In this document: positions 2,691 to 17,803 of the stretch, piece after piece | Position numbering within the stretch: the first letter of the stretch is position 1 | Layout: each line of letters opens with the position of its first letter | NCBI GenBank assembly: GCA_018711815.1 | Contig: DVHU01000008.1 | Coordinates: 1 to 64,000 of the forward strand | From: Candidatus Egerieimonas intestinavium | GTDB taxonomy: Bacteria; Bacillota; Clostridia; Lachnospirales; Lachnospiraceae | Direction: 5' to 3' | DNA: 64,000 nt | Notes under the pieces: generated by a model | What the model saw: only the letters and a program-made list of their open reading frames with translations | What the model was told of the DNA's origin: nothing | Database searches by the model: none | Made by a program: the position numbers and the translations under genes

Positions 2691-4784
2691 TTACATCTCT
2701 TCCGCATCCGATACGGCCTTGGCTCTGGCCTCGATCTCCTTGGCCTGCACCTCCGCAGGCGCCTGCTCATAGCGGGCAAAGGCATAGGAGAAATCTCCGC
2801 TTCCGCCGGTCATGGAGCGCAGAACTGTGGAATATCCGTAGATTTCCAGCTGGGGAACATCTGCCTCAATAACAGTTATTCCCTTTCCTGCAGGATTCAT
2901 ACCCAGCACACGGCCCCGGCGCTTATTCAGATCGCCCATCACGTCGCCGGTGTACTTATCTGCCACCGTAACCTTCATGGTAACGATGGGCTCCAGAAGC
3001 ACCGGAGAGGCCTCCATAAATCCTTTCTTGAAAGCCATCATGGACGCAGTCTTAAAGGCCATCTCAGAGGAATCCACCGGATGGTAGGAACCATCGTACA
3101 GAATTCCCTTGACACCCACTACCGGGTAAGCAGCCAGGGGGCCCTTCTGAACGGCTTCCTGCAGTCCCTTTTCTACTGCCGGGAAGTAGTTCTTCGGTAC
3201 GGCACCGCCCACAACGATCTGCTCAAATACGTAGGGGGTCTCCAGATCACCGGACGGTTCAAACTTCATTTTAACATGACCATACTGTCCGTGTCCACCA
3301 GATTGTTTTTTATATTTTGCTTCCACGTCGGCAGTCTTGCGGATGGTCTCCCGGAAAGCTACCTTCGGCTTGGAAAGCTCGATGTCTACTTTATATTTCT
3401 CTTTCAGCTTGCTGACCACAATATCCAGCTGCTGATCGCCGATTCCGTAGAGCAGCGTCTGACGGTTAGCGGAATCGTTGACCGCCTTCAAGGTCTGATC
3501 CTCCTGCATCAGCTTGGAGAGAGCCTGGGCTGCCTTATCCACGTCAGCCTTGTTGGGAACTCTGTAGCGTTTGCAGGTGTAGGGAACGGAAATCTCCGGC
3601 TTGCCGTAGAGCACGGGAACTGCCTTGGTCGCCAGGGAGTCGCCGGTCTTCGTAACGCTCAGCTTGCCGATGGCGCCGATATCGCCCGCGTGAAGCTCTG
3701 ATACCTCCACAGGCTTAGCTCCCTCCAGCACATACAATTTGCCCACCTTCTCCTCTGCGTCCTGGGACACATTATAGAGCACATCGTTGGATTTAATTAC
3801 GCCGGAGCAAACCTTGATCATGGAATATTTGCCCAGGAAGGGATCTGCAATGGTCTTAAATACCGTGGCGGACTTGGAGGCGGTGAAATCATAATCCGCC
3901 ACGAAAAGCTCGCTGGTATTGCTGATGATGCCCGCCCGCTCTCTCAAGTTGGGGCTGGGGAAATAGCCGCAGATGTCATCCAGCAGATTGGCCACGCCCT
4001 GCAGCTGGATGGGTGACCCCATGCAGACAGGCACCAGGCTGCCCTCCCGAACGCACATGGCCAGAGCGGCTCCGATCTCTGCCACGGAGAACTCCTCTCC
4101 CGCAAAGTAGCGGTCCATAAATTCTTCGCTGGTCTCCGCCACTGCCTCCATAAGAATCTCCCGATATTTCTCCAGGTATTCCACAGAGTACTCAGGGATC
4201 TCACATTCTACCTTCTTGCCCTTTTCCACATAGCGGCGGCCCTTATTTTTCACAATATTAATATAGCCCACAAATTTTCCGTTCTCACGGATGGGCATAT
4301 GTAGGGGCGCGATCTGCTTGCCATACTTCTCCGTCAGATCTTCCACGATTTCCCGGTAGCTGACGTCGTCGATATCCATATCCGTGACGAAAATCATTCT
4401 GGGCAGATTATACTTCTCACAGAGATCCCAGGCTTTCTGGGTTCCCACCTGAACGCCGTCCTTGCCGGATACCACAATTACAGCCGCGTCCGCAGCCGCC
4501 ACAGCCTCCTCTACTTCCCCCACAAAGTCAAAAAAGCCCGGAGTGTCCAGCACGTTGATCTTCATTTTATCCCACTGAACGGGAACCAGCGTTGTGCTGA
4601 TGGAAAATTTTCTCTTAACCTCTTCTTTATCAAAATCACTGATTGTGTTGCCGTCCGCTACTTTGCCAAGGCGGCTGGTGATGCCGGACAAATATGCCAT
4701 CGCCTCCACCAGGCTGGTCTTGCCTGCCCCGCCATGACCCAGGATTGCTACGTTGCGAATTCGTTCAGTTCTGTACACATCCAT
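2691..4784 (-). CDS. Elongation factor G-like GTPase (EF-G paralog)
   Basis: GHGGAGKTSL P-loop, DTPGFFDF G3 motif, C-terminal EF-G domain IV/V pattern (GDVMGDLNKRRGRVLGM). Confidence 0.92.
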   Translation of the reverse strand: MDVYRTERIRNVAILGHGGAGKTSLVEAMAYLSGITSRLGKVADGNTISDFDKEEVKRKFSISTTLVPVQWDKMKINVLDTPGFFDFVGEVEEAVAAADAAVIVVSGKDGVQVGTQKAWDLCEKYNLPRMIFVTDMDIDDVSYREIVEDLTEKYGKQIAPLHMPIRENGKFVGYINIVKNKGRRYVEKGKKVECEIPEYSVEYLEKYREILMEAVAETSEEFMDRYFAGEEFSVAEIGAALAMCVREGSLVPVCMGSPIQLQGVANLLDDICGYFPSPNLRERAGIISNTSELFVADYDFTASKSATVFKTIADPFLGKYSMIKVCSGVIKSNDVLYNVSQDAEEKVGKLYVLEGAKPVEVSELHAGDIGAIGKLSVTKTGDSLATKAVPVLYGKPEISVPYTCKRYRVPNKADVDKAAQALSKLMQEDQTLKAVNDSANRQTLLYGIGDQQLDIVVSKLKEKYKVDIELSKPKVAFRETIRKTADVEAKYKKQSGGHGQYGHVKMKFEPSGDLETPYVFEQIVVGGAVPKNYFPAVEKGLQEAVQKGPLAAYPVVGVKGILYDGSYHPVDSSEMAFKTASMMAFKKGFMEASPVLLEPIVTMKVTVADKYTGDVMGDLNKRRGRVLGMNPAGKGITVIEADVPQLEIYGYSTVLRSMTGGSGDFSYAFARYEQAPAEVQAKEIEARAKAVSDAEEM

Positions 4785-8860: not shown

Positions 8861-8877
8861 TAGCAAATATCTCGGAT

Positions 8878-9908
8878 ATTTCAATCTGCGCTCCCGCAAG
8901 GGGAGCGACTCTCCGGGGACGGGGAGTGCACCCTGACGGTAAACGGATTTCAATCCACGTTCCCGCGTAGGGAGCGACCGGACTAATTCGTCATAGAAAA
9001 TAATCGCTTTGCGATTTCAACCCACGCTCCCGCGTAGGGAGGACTGTAAAAGGCCAGATCCAGCTCCTTGTTGCTCAGCATTTCAATCCACGCTCCCGCG
9101 TAGGGAGCGACAGAAATCCAGCAGTACCGGGCAATCGGCACCGTGATTTCAATCCACGCTCCCGCGAGGGGAGCGACCGTGTCTGATTATATTCATGTTT
9201 TTTTAATTCCTCATTTCAATCCACGCTCCCGCGAGGGGAGCGACAGTTACGGTAGTAACCTATGCCGGCCTGGAAAATGCTATTTCAATCCACGCTCCCG
9301 CGTAGGGAGCGACGACGCCATTTGCGACGCAATAATCGAAAAATGGATTTCAATCCACGCTCCCGCGTAGGGAGCGACCTGTATGCCCATCTGCAATAAC
9401 TGGGGTAGCATGATTTCAACCCACGCTCCCGCGTAGGGAGCGACATCAGCGACGTGTACCGGCTGCTCACTCCGGCCATATTTCAACCCACGCTCCCGCG
9501 TAGGGAGCGACGGCCGACGGCGAGTTTCACACTTACACCGGCATATTTCAACCCACGCTCCCGCGTAGGGAGCGACTAACGGATACGGTCTCCTGCGGGA
9601 GGAAGGGGAAATTTCAACCCACGCTCCCGCGTAGGGAGCGACGACCGTGAATATCGCGGAAAGAAAGGAGGACGAGGATTTCAACCCACGCTCCCGCGTA
9701 GGGAGCGACTCCCCAAAGCAAAGGAGCGTAGCCGCCTGATCCTTATTTCAACCCACGCTCCCGCGTAGGGAGCGACCATGAGTGACCTATTCAGGACGGG
9801 CCCGGCACGGAATTTCAACCCACGCTCCCGCGTAGGGAGCGACGTCGTCTCAGTGGATCCTTTGCGGATCACAACGATTTCAACCCACGCTCCCGCGTAG
9901 GGAGCGAC
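8878..9908 (-). CRISPR. Type I-C CRISPR array, 16 repeats of about 32 nt and 15 spacers of 33-37 nt
   Basis: Minus-strand repeat GTCGCTCCCTACGCGGGAGCGTGGRTTGAAAT. Repeat starts (plus coordinates): 8878, 8947, 9014 (31 nt), 9080, 9146, 9213, 9282, 9347, 9413, 9480, 9545, 9611, 9678, 9745, 9812, 9877. Leader side is at high coordinates next to cas2; the 8878 repeat is degenerate (trailer end). Confidence 0.98.
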
Positions 9909-10084: not shown

Positions 10085-10375
10085 TTACAAAATCAAAGTC
10101 TTGTCTGCTGCAATTCCCCGGTCTACCCCCAGGTGTTCTACTTTTGTCTGGTATTGATTTCCCAGATAATAAAAGCGCAGACTGTCAACTTCCTTATCAA
10201 TAAGCTCTTCCAGAGTTGACTTCAGCATTATGCACTGGGCGTTATCCACAAGGCATTCAAAAACGGAATTTTGCACGCGGCGTCCATAATTGACACACTG
10301 TTTTGCCACCTTCCTAAGGCGCTTCCTGCCTGCTGCCGTCTCCGTATTCACATCGTACGTGATTAAAACTAACAT
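10085..10375 (-). CDS. cas2: CRISPR-associated endonuclease Cas2
   Basis: MLVLITYDVNTETAAGRKRLRKVAKQCVNYGRRVQNSVFEC, typical type I-C Cas2. Confidence 0.97.
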   Translation of the reverse strand: MLVLITYDVNTETAAGRKRLRKVAKQCVNYGRRVQNSVFECLVDNAQCIMLKSTLEELIDKEVDSLRFYYLGNQYQTKVEHLGVDRGIAADKTLIL

Positions 10376-10385
10376 TTACTGCACC

Positions 10386-11417
10386 TCATTTCCACAGAAA
10401 AACAGGATAACCGTCCAAATCTCCCCGCAGGTATCTGGCGAGAAGCATGGCCTGCACATAGGGCAGCATCCCCCATTCCACCTTTTCCTTCAAGTACGGA
10501 TGGGTTATGACCTCCTTCTTTTTATTCTGCCACTCGGTAAGCACTCTCCTGCGGGTATCATCATCCATCAGAACTGCTCCATTTTCCTTCTTTGCAAAGC
10601 TTTTCCCACTTACAATCCTTTTGTTAATAAGCGACAAAACAAAACGGTCTGCCAGAACGGCCCGAAGCTCTTCAATTAAATCCAGAGACAGGGAAGCTCT
10701 CCCGGGACGCTCCGTATGAAGATACCCCACATACGGATCCAAGCCAACCGTTTCCAGCGCGGCAGTTATGTTGCTGGTAAGCAGCGTATACACAAAGGAT
10801 AAAAGCGCATTTACAGCATCCATAGGCGGCCTTTTATTTCTCCCATGAAAAGAGAAATCCTTCTTCTGTTGTAAAATCAGCTGGTCCAATACACGGAAAT
10901 ATACCTGCGCTGCCTCGCCCTCATAGCCTCGAAGCTGTTCTTTGGATTGGCAATCCTTAATAAGAGTCAAGGAATTTTTCAAAAGCCCGGAGGCTGCCTT
11001 CACACGCTCTACATCAATCTGCATACTATGATCCCGAACTGCTCGCTCCAGAACCCATCTGGCATTATGCACCTTGCCCAAAATGCAGTTTTTCGCTATA
11101 TTCAAGCTGATTTCTTCATCCCTGCTGCTGGCATACTGCTGTTCCCTTAAAATGACATTTCCCTTTACCCTCCCGGAAACCCTTGCAAGAAATTTCCCCT
11201 GGGGTGTCAAATAACACAGAGAAATATTCCTCTCTGCGCAGGCGCCCATCAGCGCCGGGCTCGTACCTCTGTAACCAAAAGATACGATTCCCTCCAAATT
11301 GTGCAGCGGCAGCCTGCCAAGCTCATTTTTCTCCTCGAGAACAACTACATTTTCTCCGTCCAAAGCCAGATAACTGTTTTCCGATGTGACGTATAATGTA
11401 TTTAATAGCTTTCGCAT
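10386..11417 (-). CDS. cas1: CRISPR-associated integrase Cas1 (type I-C)
   Basis: MRKLLNTLYVTSENSYLALDGENVVV...; position between cas4 and cas2. Confidence 0.97.
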   Translation of the reverse strand: MRKLLNTLYVTSENSYLALDGENVVVLEEKNELGRLPLHNLEGIVSFGYRGTSPALMGACAERNISLCYLTPQGKFLARVSGRVKGNVILREQQYASSRDEEISLNIAKNCILGKVHNARWVLERAVRDHSMQIDVERVKAASGLLKNSLTLIKDCQSKEQLRGYEGEAAQVYFRVLDQLILQQKKDFSFHGRNKRPPMDAVNALLSFVYTLLTSNITAALETVGLDPYVGYLHTERPGRASLSLDLIEELRAVLADRFVLSLINKRIVSGKSFAKKENGAVLMDDDTRRRVLTEWQNKKKEVITHPYLKEKVEWGMLPYVQAMLLARYLRGDLDGYPVFLWK

Positions 11418-12079
11418 TGTTCGTCCTCCTCCAGCACCTGCTTCATATAGCTTTTCACAGAAACAGCCTTTCCCAGCTTCGGCAGACAGAGTTCCTTCAA
11501 GGAACAGGAATTACAAGCTTTTCCGTATTTCACTCGGGGTGTATATTTTCTGTCGTAATACTGATGCATTTCCCGAAACATCCTTTGTACCTCACAGCGC
11601 AGCTCCTCTGTGATTTCCACCGTTTCTCTTCTTCTGGTTTCTCCGTAGAAAAGAGCTCCCTCCGGTACGGCTGTGCAAAACATTTCCTCCAGACACATGG
11701 CCTGCGCCGCAAGCTGCAATTTATCCTCCTCCGTCAGCTTAGGTTTTCCTTTTTTATATTCAACCGGGTAAACAGAATACAGTCCCCTGTGTCCGTGGAG
11801 GGAAATTCCATCCTCGCACCTGTGAAATTCCACAATGTCGCACTCGCCACTAGCGCCAAGCTCTGCCGAGGACACCGGAAGGGCTCTGGCGATAATTGTA
11901 TCCTTTCTCTTTTCCGCCAGATACGGGTCGTGAGCCTTCTTGTGCATAAGCTCACCTGTAACCGTGTGCATATTTTCCGCCCACTGTTGCTCAATATGAA
12001 TCAGAGTCCACTGTCTCCGGCAAAACTTAAAATGCTGTATGCCCGAAATCATCAAATAATCGTCTTCCGCATACTTCAT
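11402..12079 (-). CDS. cas4: CRISPR-associated exonuclease Cas4
   Basis: MISGIQHFKFCRRQWTLIHIEQQW; C-terminal CNSCSLKELCLP cysteine cluster. Confidence 0.96.
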   Translation of the reverse strand: MKYAEDDYLMISGIQHFKFCRRQWTLIHIEQQWAENMHTVTGELMHKKAHDPYLAEKRKDTIIARALPVSSAELGASGECDIVEFHRCEDGISLHGHRGLYSVYPVEYKKGKPKLTEEDKLQLAAQAMCLEEMFCTAVPEGALFYGETRRRETVEITEELRCEVQRMFREMHQYYDRKYTPRVKYGKACNSCSLKELCLPKLGKAVSVKSYMKQVLEEDEQCESY

Positions 12080-12990
12080 TAAATCATCCTTTTCATTTCA
12101 ACCGAATCCGGAATCTGCTCCTGGTGAATCTCAACGGTATAATCCTGGTATCTTCTGGGGGCTTCAACCCCTTCGTTCTTCTTTACCTCCACAGCGTCAA
12201 ACAGTTTATATGCCGGGCAGTCTCCCAGCTCCTTGCTGTGTTTAAATACAATCAGCTCGCGGACAGCCATTTTCCCCCGCGCCGCCGAATGGTCGTGCTC
12301 GAACATGTTTATAATCGCCTCCCAGAGCAGCTCCAAATCTTCCTCTGTGAAACCCGTCACTTTGCGCGCCAGATTTGCGGAGACATAGCCCTCCGCCCGG
12401 TACAGACCATAGGGCACAATACTTTTTCGGCCCATTTCTGTCTGCTTATTTTCCGCATCCTTCTCCGTGGTGATGGCAACCCTTGTAATTGTTATTTCCT
12501 GGCTAACAACCGGGTCGATACTTCTGGCAAAGCCCAGCTGCACCGGGCCTCTCACCTGCCCGCAGTTCAGAGCCGCTTTCACAAAGGTGGTCATAACTGC
12601 TCCGAAGGTACGGATGTCGTAAAAATTCTTGCACATGTAATCCCGCAGCTTCAAATCTGCTTTCGGGTCGTTTTTCTTTAACTTCTTTATGGCCTCCGTC
12701 ACCTTCTTGTCCTCTGTCTCTTCAATCCCCAGAGCCTGACAGGCCGCCCGGTCGCTCCTGTTTAAGGGTACCTCCTCCTTAATATAAATCTGGAATCCCG
12801 CTTCCTCCTCCTTCACTGTCTCCACATAATTCCTGATTTTTCTTTTCAGGCAAACATCCGTCACAAGTCCCAGGCCGCTTTCCGGGTCAATTCTCGGCAT
12901 GTTTCCGGCGTCGGGGTCCCCGTTTGGATTTCCGTTCTCTACGTCAAACAATACCACAAATTCGTATCTGTTCTTGATTATCTCGCTCAT
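12079..12990 (-). CDS. cas7c: Type I-C Cas7 (Csd2)
   Basis: RYEFVVLFDVENGNPNGDPDAGNMPRIDPE..., Csd2 signature. Confidence 0.97.
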   Translation of the reverse strand: MSEIIKNRYEFVVLFDVENGNPNGDPDAGNMPRIDPESGLGLVTDVCLKRKIRNYVETVKEEEAGFQIYIKEEVPLNRSDRAACQALGIEETEDKKVTEAIKKLKKNDPKADLKLRDYMCKNFYDIRTFGAVMTTFVKAALNCGQVRGPVQLGFARSIDPVVSQEITITRVAITTEKDAENKQTEMGRKSIVPYGLYRAEGYVSANLARKVTGFTEEDLELLWEAIINMFEHDHSAARGKMAVRELIVFKHSKELGDCPAYKLFDAVEVKKNEGVEAPRRYQDYTVEIHQEQIPDSVEMKRMI

Positions 12991-14721
12991 TTATTTTTCC
13001 TCCTGTTTTTTATACTTTCTCTGGGTCTGCTGATAGTATCCTAAGATAAATTTACCCTGGTCCTCCAAAGACAAGCGTCTGGGAAACTCGGTCCCCAGCT
13101 TTCCTAGGATCTCTGTTAAAAGCTGCTCATAATAGGGCTTTGCCCAGCCTTTTTCCCGTTCCAATTTCTTCATGTGACTGTTTTTCAGCTTTACCAAAAC
13201 CGGAAAAACGGAAGCCGGAGTTGCACACGCTGAATTAAAATACCGGTCCCGAATCGTAGCGTTGATTGTTGGATTCGCCTCCCTTTGAATCGCCTCCAAT
13301 ACTGAAAACAGCCGTCCCAGCACATAAGCCTTGCTCTCCATCTCTTCTGTGTTTACTTCCATATAAGCTGCTCCTTTCTCCCATTTACGGTTTTGTATCA
13401 AATATGCCTTTACAATCGCTGCCCGGCCCCAGGTAACATTTCCCTGTTCCGCACGAATCCGAATAAGCGTATCTGCGTATAGTCTCTCCGGATAAGGGGC
13501 TCCCTGTAAGATAGAACGCAGTACCATGGCAGCCATATTGGGAACCGGCGATTTATCCTTGGATTTTGGATTTACCGTCTCAAACAGCATATCCCGCACG
13601 CCCAAATATTCTCTTGTCTCCCAGACCGGCCTTACAAGCTCCATTCTCTCGTAATGCCTGGACAGATTTTCCAGTATATTCCCAAATGAGCTTTCATAGA
13701 AAAAGCGAACCGACAGCCTCGCCGCATTGGGTGCCAACCCCAGAATATAAAAGCGTTGCTGCGGATTCAGTGAAATTCCCTGAATAAAAATCGGCTCTTG
13801 ATTTTTTAAATGCCCAAAAATTTCCTTTAGTTCCTCCTGATTATCAGCTCTGGAAACTACCGCCTGGAAAAAGGCATCCTGATATGCCTCCTCTCCGCCC
13901 TCCGCCCAGAACAAAATCATAGAATCTCCCAACTGAAAAACGTATTCCCGCTGGCTCAACAGATAGTTCAAAGCCGTTGTGTAGGCAAATTCCGCATATT
14001 TTCCCACCGGTGCATTGTAGCTCTGCTCCTTGCCGTAAGATTCAAAGGCCGGCGCGTTAAAGGAAATCAGCGCCGCCCCACTGGATTGGGCTCCTGGCAC
14101 TCCTTTAATGCTCTTGTGGATTCTGGCAATTTCTGACCGTTTCCCCGTCACGAGGCAAATCCCTTCTTCCGTTTTCCCGGCAACACTTCTGGCATTTTCC
14201 CAGGCCTCACGTATAGCACTGTCCTCCTGGGCATAATTCATCCCCATAGAAAAAATCAGGTTTCCGCCCGCCGTAAGCTCCTCCCAGTTTTCCTGAATCT
14301 CCGGATGGCTATTCGCCTCCAACGGATTCCATTCCTCAAAGTATCGGCAGATTGCTCTTGCCATGGGGCCTTCCACTCCCCACAAAAGGGATAAATGCCT
14401 TTCCTTTGCTGCCTGAAAACATTCCTGGGTCCGGGGATTCGTCCCATCCGCGTCGATTCCCAGCATATATTTCGCATTATCACATAAAAAGTTCGCGGAG
14501 ACTCCCGAGGAGCGGGTTACCATTTCCGGTACGGTTATCATTTGGGGAATAGATATTCTTTTCTTTTCATCTTCTCCTTTCAGAGATAGAATCCCCGTTA
14601 TCTTTCCTTCTTCGGACAAGTTAATTGCATAGGAGACCTTCGCTTGGCACCAGCCCTCTCGGGACACCTTCCCCTGCTCTGCCAGACATTCATAATAGTT
14701 TACCAACGGCTCCAACTTCAT
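12991..14721 (-). CDS. cas8c: Type I-C large subunit Cas8c (Csd1)
   Basis: MKLEPLVNYYECLAEQGKVSREGW...; Csd1-like, between cas5c and cas7c. Confidence 0.95.
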   Translation of the reverse strand: MKLEPLVNYYECLAEQGKVSREGWCQAKVSYAINLSEEGKITGILSLKGEDEKKRISIPQMITVPEMVTRSSGVSANFLCDNAKYMLGIDADGTNPRTQECFQAAKERHLSLLWGVEGPMARAICRYFEEWNPLEANSHPEIQENWEELTAGGNLIFSMGMNYAQEDSAIREAWENARSVAGKTEEGICLVTGKRSEIARIHKSIKGVPGAQSSGAALISFNAPAFESYGKEQSYNAPVGKYAEFAYTTALNYLLSQREYVFQLGDSMILFWAEGGEEAYQDAFFQAVVSRADNQEELKEIFGHLKNQEPIFIQGISLNPQQRFYILGLAPNAARLSVRFFYESSFGNILENLSRHYERMELVRPVWETREYLGVRDMLFETVNPKSKDKSPVPNMAAMVLRSILQGAPYPERLYADTLIRIRAEQGNVTWGRAAIVKAYLIQNRKWEKGAAYMEVNTEEMESKAYVLGRLFSVLEAIQREANPTINATIRDRYFNSACATPASVFPVLVKLKNSHMKKLEREKGWAKPYYEQLLTEILGKLGTEFPRRLSLEDQGKFILGYYQQTQRKYKKQEEK

Positions 14722-15377
14722 CTGACCACCTCGCAATCCCGCAGGTTCAAAATTCCTCCTCGCATAACGGCTCTGAAAAACATAGGCTGCGGATTTTCTC
14801 TGTCCGAATAATCCATGTCAAACAGCATAAATCCCAAATCCTTTTCCGGCACCTGGCTGTATACGCTCTCAACCTCATCCTCGCACAGACAGAAATGAGC
14901 GGGAAACTCCCGGCAGCCAAAATATGGCATGTGATAGCATTCTCCCTTTCTCAACCGCCTCATGACAATATCCTTGAATTTTCCGGGATTGTCTGTAGCC
15001 TTGGCCTCGCTGGTCATCTCAAAATGCGCAGATATCACGTATTCCACATCGCAAAGCAGGACGGAGGCTCTCTGCACAATGTCCGCTTTTGTACTAATAT
15101 ACAGCGGCTTGTCCGCCCCGTTATACGCCTGGAGTACACTGCTGGCCAAAACCTTGCTCTTTACCTCATTCCGGCGGACACTGGTGAACCGGATAGGCTT
15201 TACCACACAAATCTCATCGGGTACCCACTGCAGCCCTGGATGCCAAAAAATTGAGTCCAGTATCCCTCGGGCCGCCGACGGCGTTATCACATCATAGGAA
15301 TACCGTTCCGTCTTAAATTCGGGTCTGGAAAACAGCGCATAATCTCCCCAAACCCTGACCTTTACACCAAATCCCAT
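14718..15377 (-). CDS. cas5c: Type I-C Cas5 (Cas5c/Cas5d, crRNA-processing)
   Basis: VRVWGDYALFSRPEFKTERYSYDVITPSAARGILDSIFW, typical Cas5d; no cas6 present, as expected for I-C. Confidence 0.97.
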   Translation of the reverse strand: MGFGVKVRVWGDYALFSRPEFKTERYSYDVITPSAARGILDSIFWHPGLQWVPDEICVVKPIRFTSVRRNEVKSKVLASSVLQAYNGADKPLYISTKADIVQRASVLLCDVEYVISAHFEMTSEAKATDNPGKFKDIVMRRLRKGECYHMPYFGCREFPAHFCLCEDEVESVYSQVPEKDLGFMLFDMDYSDRENPQPMFFRAVMRGGILNLRDCEVVR

Positions 15378-15468: not shown

Positions 15469-15528
15469 TATGATGTTACGAGAATTTTATAGAAGTTATA
15501 TTTGACATTAATCTATCTTTTGATTCCA

Positions 15529-15557
15529 TTGAATTTTTATTTTAATTCTGTTATATT
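15529..15557 (+). promoter_or_regulatory. Predicted sigma70-type promoter of the candidate crRNA-like RNA
   Basis: Plus-strand TTGAAT (15529-15534), 17-nt spacer, TATATT (15552-15557); predicted start about 15564. Confidence 0.6.
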
Positions 15558-15563
15558 ATTGCT

Positions 15564-15652
15564 GTCAGGAGAACCTGCGGATTGAAATTATAATATTCAG
15601 CGTAATGGCAACGGCGGAAGGCCTGCGAAGGAATTTCTTCGCAGGCCTTCGC
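15564..15652 (+). ncRNA. Candidate CreR/CreA-like crRNA-like regulatory RNA (pseudo-repeat, pseudo-spacer, stable hairpin)
   Basis: Pseudo-repeat GTCAGGAGAACCTGCGGATTGAAAT (15564-15588) keeps the 5' GTC, a stem-loop (CAGG-AGAA-CCTG) and the 3' GGATTGAAAT of the array repeat; pseudo-spacer from 15589; 14-bp hairpin at 15617-15650. Confidence 0.6.
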
Positions 15653-15667: not shown

Positions 15668-17803
15668 TTACAGAAACTGGGCTGTTCCCAATTCCACTTC
15701 CAGCTTTAACCCCAGCTCCTCCGTATACTGCTCTTTCTTTACCAATTCATAGGAATCTTCTATATTTTCCGAGACTGCTCTCACCATTCCCATACCATAC
15801 AGCTTTTCAAACTCTCTTTTATATACCTGGACACAATACTGGCTCGCCCTTCTCATTTCCGACCTTGTACATTTTTCCTCCTTCATCCTCTGCAAAAGGG
15901 AAACCGCCTCTTCATTTGCAGGAATATATATGGTCTTCGTGTCCCCCTCAATCAGCTTGAATGCTTTTGCCGCCTTTGCGAAATGATATCCACCCGCTTT
16001 AAATTCCGCCATGATTTTCTTTTTGTCCAGCCCTTCTCCCTTCAAATGATACAGAGCTTCAAAATACTCTTCTATACATTCCAGAGAAGCAATATCCTCA
16101 TACTTGTCGAACATTGGCTTCGCCACATCAATCTGCTGCCGCTGCCCCGGTACTGTCTCCCACCCTTCAAAGCGGAAAACAAACACCTTACTGTCTTCAG
16201 GGCTCCTTTTCCCTTCCCGGTTGCACCGTCCCGCTGCCTGAATAATGGAATCCACTCCTGCCAGCTGGCGATACACGGTCTCAAAATCTAAATCCACCCC
16301 TGCCTCCACCAAGCTTGTGGAAATCAGTACGCACCTTTTTCCTTCATACAACCGCTTCCTGATGGTCTCCAGAACCCTTTTTCGGTGCTTGGGATACATG
16401 GCGGTAGACAAATGATACACCCCTTCCCCTTTTACCGCCTCGTAAAGCGCCTGGGCTCTCTTTTTTGTGTTTACGATACACAGCGTCTGGAATTCTCCCT
16501 TTAGGCGTTCCGCCAGGTTCTCTTCTGTCAGCGTGTCAAGATTGTTATAGGTAACGCGCTCAAAAAAGCGAAACTGCTCCTCTACTCTGGGACAAAGCTC
16601 TGTAAATGCGGCATCCTCCCGGAAAAAGGAGGTCAGCGCAGGCTGTGTGGCCGTACACAGCACAATACTGGATCCGTAACGCTCCACCAGCTCTTCCATC
16701 ATAGCCGTACAGGGCTTCAAAAAGTCAAAGGGCAGCATTTGCGCCTCATCAAAAATAATCACGCTGTTGACGATATTATGTAATTTTCTGCACCTGGAGG
16801 ATTTATTGGAAAACAAAGACTCAAAAAACTGCACATTTGTCGTCACCACCACCGGCTTATCCCAATTTTCCGCCGCCAGCTGGAAGGGCTTCAGCTCCTC
16901 TTTTCCCTCATAATCAATATTGCTGTGATTCTCCAGCACATTTTCATCCCCCAGAATCTCCCGGAACACCCCCGCATTCTGTTCAATAATGCTGGTGTAT
17001 GGAATAACGTAGATAATCCGCTTCATTCCCTGCTTTACCGCGTGACGCAGGGCAAAGGCCAGAGAGGCAACGGTTTTTCCGCCTCCTGTGGGAACGGTAA
17101 GTCGAAATATACCCTTCCCCATCTCTCCGCAGGTCAGGCAATGATTTAAAATCTCCGTCCTTCTTCCATTGACGTTATCCGGCTCCTTTACTTCCCGCCA
17201 GCCGGCAGTATAGGCTTCCAGCTTTGCAAGAAGAATCTCCATCTCCTCGCCGCCCTCTCTTGCAGTCTGCCCCGCCGTCATAAACTGTTCCGTATCCAGA
17301 AAATCAGCATCCACCAGACAGGAATATAGCATACGGATAAATACACTTAAGGAAAAATCCTTGTTTTTTGCCTTAGCAGCCTCAAAAGGAAGGGAGTGCA
17401 GCTCCGGAATCTGAATATCCTCCTTATACGCCTGGTAATCCTCGATTTTTTTCCGTCGCCTTCCCATCAGAGTCGGCATATCCCCCGCATCCGAGGAGCC
17501 GCCCTGATCCGGAAGGCCCGCGTGATGTCCGGCAATGCAATAGCTCATGATTTCATACAGGCCGCCCTTCTCCATACAAAGCTGAACCCCCGCTGTGGAA
17601 TGATCCACGCGGATATCCTCTCCGTGAACTCTCCGCTGAAACGCCTTAGAATATTTTCCTACATCGTGCAGAAGGCCGCAGCAATATCCCCAATCGCTTT
17701 TTCCAAACGCTCCTGCAAACTCGCCCGCCAGCCGGGCAGTTCCCTCCAAATGCTCCTTTATCGTCTGTGTCCGTGTTCCTTCTATATGCGCATAGTACTC
17801 CAT
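15668..17803 (-). CDS. cas3: Cas3 nuclease-helicase (HD plus DExD/H)
   Basis: N-terminal GLLHDVGKYSKAFQ HD motif, VPTGGGKTVASLAFAL Walker A, FDEAQML, SLVEAGVDLDFETVYRQLAGVDSIIQAAGRCNREG. Confidence 0.97.
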   Translation of the reverse strand: MEYYAHIEGTRTQTIKEHLEGTARLAGEFAGAFGKSDWGYCCGLLHDVGKYSKAFQRRVHGEDIRVDHSTAGVQLCMEKGGLYEIMSYCIAGHHAGLPDQGGSSDAGDMPTLMGRRRKKIEDYQAYKEDIQIPELHSLPFEAAKAKNKDFSLSVFIRMLYSCLVDADFLDTEQFMTAGQTAREGGEEMEILLAKLEAYTAGWREVKEPDNVNGRRTEILNHCLTCGEMGKGIFRLTVPTGGGKTVASLAFALRHAVKQGMKRIIYVIPYTSIIEQNAGVFREILGDENVLENHSNIDYEGKEELKPFQLAAENWDKPVVVTTNVQFFESLFSNKSSRCRKLHNIVNSVIIFDEAQMLPFDFLKPCTAMMEELVERYGSSIVLCTATQPALTSFFREDAAFTELCPRVEEQFRFFERVTYNNLDTLTEENLAERLKGEFQTLCIVNTKKRAQALYEAVKGEGVYHLSTAMYPKHRKRVLETIRKRLYEGKRCVLISTSLVEAGVDLDFETVYRQLAGVDSIIQAAGRCNREGKRSPEDSKVFVFRFEGWETVPGQRQQIDVAKPMFDKYEDIASLECIEEYFEALYHLKGEGLDKKKIMAEFKAGGYHFAKAAKAFKLIEGDTKTIYIPANEEAVSLLQRMKEEKCTRSEMRRASQYCVQVYKREFEKLYGMGMVRAVSENIEDSYELVKKEQYTEELGLKLEVELGTAQFL

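Follow-up and report, generated by a model that had tools for sequence, protein, structure and literature searches.

The window analysed here, a stretch of 64 kb, has on its minus strand a complete cas operon of type I-C, cas3-cas5c-cas8c(Csd1)-cas7-cas4-cas1-cas2, together with its CRISPR array, and the question that it raises is what a solitary repeat-like sequence could be doing in the 290 bp gap between cas3 and cas5c. Type I-C ranks with the commonest CRISPR subtypes and has been put to use in gene repression and editing. The genes are cas3 (15668–17803), which converges on the repeat-like element from the opposite side, cas5c (14718–15377; PF09704), cas8c (12991–14736), cas7 (12079–12990), cas4 (11402–12079), cas1 (10386–11417) and cas2 (10085–10375), the last of which was assigned by position and length alone. 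cas5c is the first gene of the operon presumed to be repressed, and its product doubles as the nuclease that processes crRNA in type I-C. The array lies at about 8867–9908 on the same strand, with 16 repeats listed. These are of two types, GTGGGTTGAAAT closer to cas2 and GTGGATTGAAAT mostly more distant from it, and the final repeat (about 8878–8909) is degenerate.

The earlier note had proposed that the gap holds a crRNA-like RNA of the CreR or CreA type on the plus strand, and the parts that it described are all present. A degenerate (pseudo) CRISPR repeat, GTCAGGAGAACCTGCGGATTGAAAT, lies at 15564–15588, outside the array yet inside the cas locus, with a stem-loop of 4 bp (CAGG-AGAA-CCTG) and an 11 nt 3′ tail (15578–15588) which is the predicted 5′ handle. 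It is followed by a pseudo-spacer, or guide, of about 28 nt (15589–15616; beginning TATAATATTC) and by a hairpin near the 3′ end of cas3 (15617–15650), which would end the RNA and which we measure at 14–15 bp, 14 bp having been claimed. Hairpins like this one are found 17–35 nt past the handle in many related elements. The hairpin has no T tract after it and is thus not a classical terminator, though it could possibly serve as a two-way terminator. The whole element is antiparallel to all seven cas genes and to the array, as had been stated. One detail of the comparison with the array holds only in part: the repeat tail given, TGGATTGAAAT, occurs in six repeats, and most of the others carry TGGGTTGAAAT.

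Upstream of the pseudo-repeat is a putative promoter, TTGAAT-N17-TATATT (15529–15557, plus strand; TTGAAT at 15529–15534 and TATATT at 15552–15557), from which transcription is predicted to start at about 15564. A promoter scan recovered the same site, a 9/12 match that is weak alone (three sites versus 1.0 ± 1.0 expected), and a TATAAT-like box is present at a comparable distance upstream of most of 33 related elements. The sequence of the pseudo-repeat is by itself weak evidence, because YGGATTGAAAY occurs 12 times in the 2.88 Mb genome, six of them within the array, and because the full 25-mer (allowing up to three mismatches) has no match in 396 other genomes of the family. Searching Rfam with the element returned no family, the best hit being unrelated (E value 0.27).

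The earlier note gave no target for the guide; one was found in the present analysis. Guide positions 1–5 and 7–10 match the minus-strand sequence TATAAAATTC (15491–15482), position 6 being mismatched. This is the seed of a 35 nt protospacer (15491–15457) which adjoins a TTC PAM (15494–15492) and overlaps the −35 box of the predicted promoter of cas5c-cas8c-cas7-cas4-cas1-cas2 (TTGACT-N17-TATGCT, 15468–15440, minus strand; 9/12 consensus match, with TG before the −10 box). This promoter and that of the element are both predictions based on weak consensus matches. The complementarity is limited and of seed type, and is directed at a PAM-flanked site in a predicted cas promoter. TTC with a full 9/9 seed match occurs at one site only in the whole window, and when the gap, without the element, was shuffled by dinucleotides, 3 of 8000 shuffles produced a match of equal quality.

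A cas5c search, taking one genome per species, provided 53 related loci, mostly from Lachnospiraceae. Conservation in related I-C cas3–cas5c gaps had been set beforehand as a point on which the proposal should be judged; a pseudo-repeat is present in 16 other such gaps, antisense to cas5c in every one, with spacers that differ among them. When the best match to spacer nucleotides 1–11 was sought anywhere in the same gap, ignoring the PAM in the search, it adjoined TTC in 17 of 17 gaps (window included). The own-gap matches score 9–10 out of 10, compared with a mean of 5.9 out of 10 for the same spacers at the TTC sites of other loci's gaps, and guide and target thus change together between related loci. 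A repeat-like match in a further locus, L044, was counted initially and was dropped for want of a seed target. Taken together, the antisense pseudo-repeats and the TTC-flanked seed targets that accompany them in the 16 other gaps support a CreR/CreA-type RNA for type I-C.

The stems of the pseudo-repeats vary (CAGG/CCTG, CAGA/TCTG, CTGG/CCAG, CCCC/GGGG, CCGT/ACGG and longer ones) over a constant GGRTWGAAAH tail, and four elements are without a simple stem. For the elements combined, stem pairing gives a P value of 3e-14, which is generous given the free choice of stem and the kinship of the loci. Each stem is weak singly, that of the window having just 4 bp and being equalled in 60 of 500 shuffles, and stem pairing was dropped as proof of an element. 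What raises the element above chance is the PAM-plus-seed target, together with the fact that it comes back in altered sequence at related loci; the element is recognizable by anatomy and target and not by sequence.

Extending the same rule to whole loci revealed thirteen further elements and a looser rule three more, most of which precede a pair of genes described below. In L041 and L045 cas3 and cas5c almost touch, and the element is placed before cas3, at a greater distance upstream. Another 23 loci, drawn separately as a second set, yielded two new elements, in L070 and L073, plus one matching that of L025. Three of the new loci lack the gene pair and have a gap of at least about 200 bp: L070, L073 and L071, the last of which has no element. 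The long gaps of L006, L007, L026 and L071 hold none by the criteria applied, and the same is true of about 20 of the 53 related loci. Nor did the same test find one in seven distant plasmid-borne I-C loci (from Nitratidesulfovibrio, Leptolinea, Streptomyces, Thermus, Rhizobium, Deinococcus and Bacillus). Given these loci and the roughly 20 others, the element is not general to I-C. In L031 the space between cas3 and cas5c holds a CRISPR array with six or more repeats, about 71–406 bp upstream of cas5c and in the cas direction.

Guide–target pairing was counted position by position in 32 elements (L036 is near-identical to L034, so that the two count as one and L036 was left out). Positions 1–5 match in 32/32, position 6 in 8/32, position 7 in 31/32 and positions 7–10 as a whole in 30–32/32. 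Further on, position 11 matches in 26/32, position 12 in 3/32, positions 13–17 in 21–27/32 and position 18 in 6/32, after which matching falls to background. Positions 6, 12 and 18 were unused in site finding. The difference between positions 12 and 13 has a Fisher P value of 2e-6, which treats the loci as independent and is hence generous. We also note that the 3/32 at position 12 lies below the chance expectation of roughly 25–30% (P 0.005–0.03); a mismatch there may be favored. With 9 nt paired, the window falls among the shorter members of the family, and its position 11 is mismatched versus paired in 26/32 elements. Base flipping in Cascade imposes a period of six on pairing, as is established for type I effectors, and on the sequence comparison the pattern seen here is that base-flipping signature. 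For comparison, haloarchaeal CreA requires positions 1–5 and 7–11, positions 6 and 12 being dispensable, and uses TTC as its PAM; the creA of H. hispanica has a single repeat and ends in a terminator (PMC8501985).

The anatomy, the target, the covariation of guide with target and the Cascade-like mismatch pattern are observed features of these loci, and in our view it is highly probable that 15564–15650 on the plus strand gives rise to a short crRNA-like transcript of the CreR kind which serves type I-C by repressing the cas operon. From these features we infer how the RNA would be transcribed, processed, loaded and used for repression, and what its physiological role may be. Transcription would begin near the pseudo-repeat, at about 15564, and Cas5c would cleave after the stem, at 15577/15578, to leave the 11 nt handle. 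The product would load into type I-C Cascade. In I-C one repeat plus one spacer works as well as repeat–spacer–repeat (PMC10865793), and an RNA with a single repeat should thus be sufficient in principle. The complex would bind the TTC-flanked minus-strand site at 15494–15457, pairing at positions 1–5 and 7–10 only, which would be long enough for binding and too short for destruction by Cas3; Cascade would therefore cover the −35 box upstream of cas5c and so repress cas5c-cas8c-cas7-cas4-cas1-cas2. Type I-C Cascade without Cas3 does repress promoters at TTC sites (PMC10865793). The outcome would be negative feedback, lifted if Cascade were scarce, engaged by other crRNAs or blocked.

The alternative that survives best is that the RNA is the CreA of a CreTA-type addiction module, which would repress a nearby toxin (protein or RNA) and not the cas genes. 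Its appeal comes from 17 sister loci in which a DUF3990 gene (PF13151, E value 4.5e-52; 155 residues) and an overlapping partner of 150 residues lie between cas3 and cas5c (L012:3108–3999, and the equivalent place in L009–L011, L013, L014, L016, L017, L019, L021, L023, L024, L028–L030, L032 and L052). The two genes match the PADLOC candidate-defence models PDC-M10A and PDC-M10B; Roseburia porci and Blautia massiliensis are among the carriers of the pair. In 13 of the 17 loci an antisense element, alike in stem and seed pattern and with its own TTC seed target, precedes the pair, which is downstream of that target, and a creTA of type I-F sits in a cas3–csy1 gap (PMC10097628). In L011 the element (924) is separated from the DUF3990 gene (3083) by a transposase-like ORF (1524–2888). 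The predicted structure of the DUF3990 protein has a mean pLDDT of 61.6 and no significant fold match. The window, however, has neither a DUF3990 gene nor its partner, no ORF of annotated size is confined to its gap on the repressed strand, and the predicted promoter overlapped by the target leads directly into cas5c by way of a leader some 60 nt long, within which a small RNA toxin is possible. With a target that overlaps the probable cas5c operon promoter, and with no toxin gene, the window is better suited by CreR than by CreA on the sequence evidence, and we regard a CreA in the window as unlikely.

For the sister loci with the DUF3990 pair a CreA-like use of the element seems likely, and pair and element may form a CRISPR-repressed toxin–antitoxin in I-C. 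L025 has kept the partner gene alone (3523–3972) and retains a crRNA-like element, and L026 has a fragment of the partner alone (2969–3274); the two suggest that loss of the DUF3990 pair is under way. These same loci lend something to a second alternative, that the window element is an inert relic without function in this genome, left behind either by a CRISPR unit or by a DUF3990 module that has been lost. The pairing in the window is among the shorter ones and its stem is minimal, as a relic would allow. Seed positions 1–5 and 7–10, the PAM, the repeat tail, the −10 spacing and the hairpin have nevertheless been kept while the remainder diverged, which is unexpected for a relic, and we give this explanation very little weight. 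Least probable of all is that the crRNA-like RNA is functional but has its main target at another place in the genome, where another gene would be regulated: TTCTATAANATT is present at three further genome sites and Cas9 is known for regulating other genes in the scaRNA-like manner, but for every related gap the best target is found within that gap itself, beside TTC, and one target per gap with guide and target changing together favors a local target.

Returning to a CreR-kind repressor in the window, we can tentatively suggest, while thinking it somewhat less probable than its converse, how it might relate to the sister loci. All would belong to one family of I-C guide RNAs with a single repeat, which in the sister group would silence the DUF3990 pair in one operon with cas5c-cas8c-cas7, such that loss of Cascade would release the toxin-like pair and new Cascade jointly. 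The window element would be the form that remained after loss of the pair and was kept for pure autoregulation.

PMC12737573 poses as an open question whether other CRISPR types have CRISPR-repressed toxins that are not of the FtsZ-targeting kind, and the DUF3990 sister loci bear on it. An I-C CreR, if true, would account for the way in which I-C loci keep self-damage in check, and could sense attack by anti-CRISPRs; a hidden repressor may then also travel with I-C operons that are moved between hosts. Autoregulation of I-C becomes testable in cultured gut bacteria; cultured strains that carry the element include Fusicatenibacter saccharivorans D41t1, Clostridium transplantifaecale and Lachnoclostridium sp. 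An131.

Among known systems, Shmakov et al. (2023) reportedly predicted standalone repeats and mini-arrays, mostly of type I, as crRNA-like elements which resemble the window element in being aimed at cas promoters. A literature search for I-C together with CreR found no I-C CreR; the window element may thus be a CreR-type RNA in a subtype for which the searched literature names none, bearing in mind that the 2023 predictions may include I-C. The phage RNA anti-CRISPRs (Racr, including RacrIC1) are likewise solitary repeat mimics with their own promoter, but they are carried on mobile elements and block Cas assembly (PMC10651486), whereas the window element is in a host cas locus and belongs to a family with a conserved guide–target match. 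Identity with Racr was rejected, as the element lies between cas3 and cas5c and not on a phage or mobile element away from cas genes. Haloarchaeal I-B CreA shares with the I-C elements the seed at 1–5 and 7–11, the disregard of positions 6 and 12 and the TTC PAM, and its one-repeat form with a terminator resembles the single repeat and hairpin of the window (PMC8501985). The CreA of Acinetobacter I-F is placed comparably, in a cas3–csy1 gap (PMC10097628). CreA represses a toxin, in contrast to the window, where no toxin was found and the target overlaps the predicted promoter of cas5c. CrePA, the CRISPR-repressed protein toxin system of Shu et al. (2025), follows the same logic as the sister loci, with an element before a protein gene pair; known CreP typically has a KilA-N domain, whereas the sister loci have DUF3990 and its partner in I-C, a pair absent from the window (PMC12737573). 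CreR (Liu et al., 2023, PMID 37659410) is cited in PMC13131331 as repressing the cas genes of I-B, I-E and V-A, and a review speaks of cas autorepression by CreR for type I and V-A generally (PMC12737573). As described there, CreR is like the window element a degenerate-repeat crRNA-like RNA near cas genes, with limited complementarity to a cas promoter and no need of a toxin; compared with it, the window element belongs to I-C, with predicted processing by Cas5c, has just a single repeat and is oriented divergently from cas5c within the cas3–cas5c gap.
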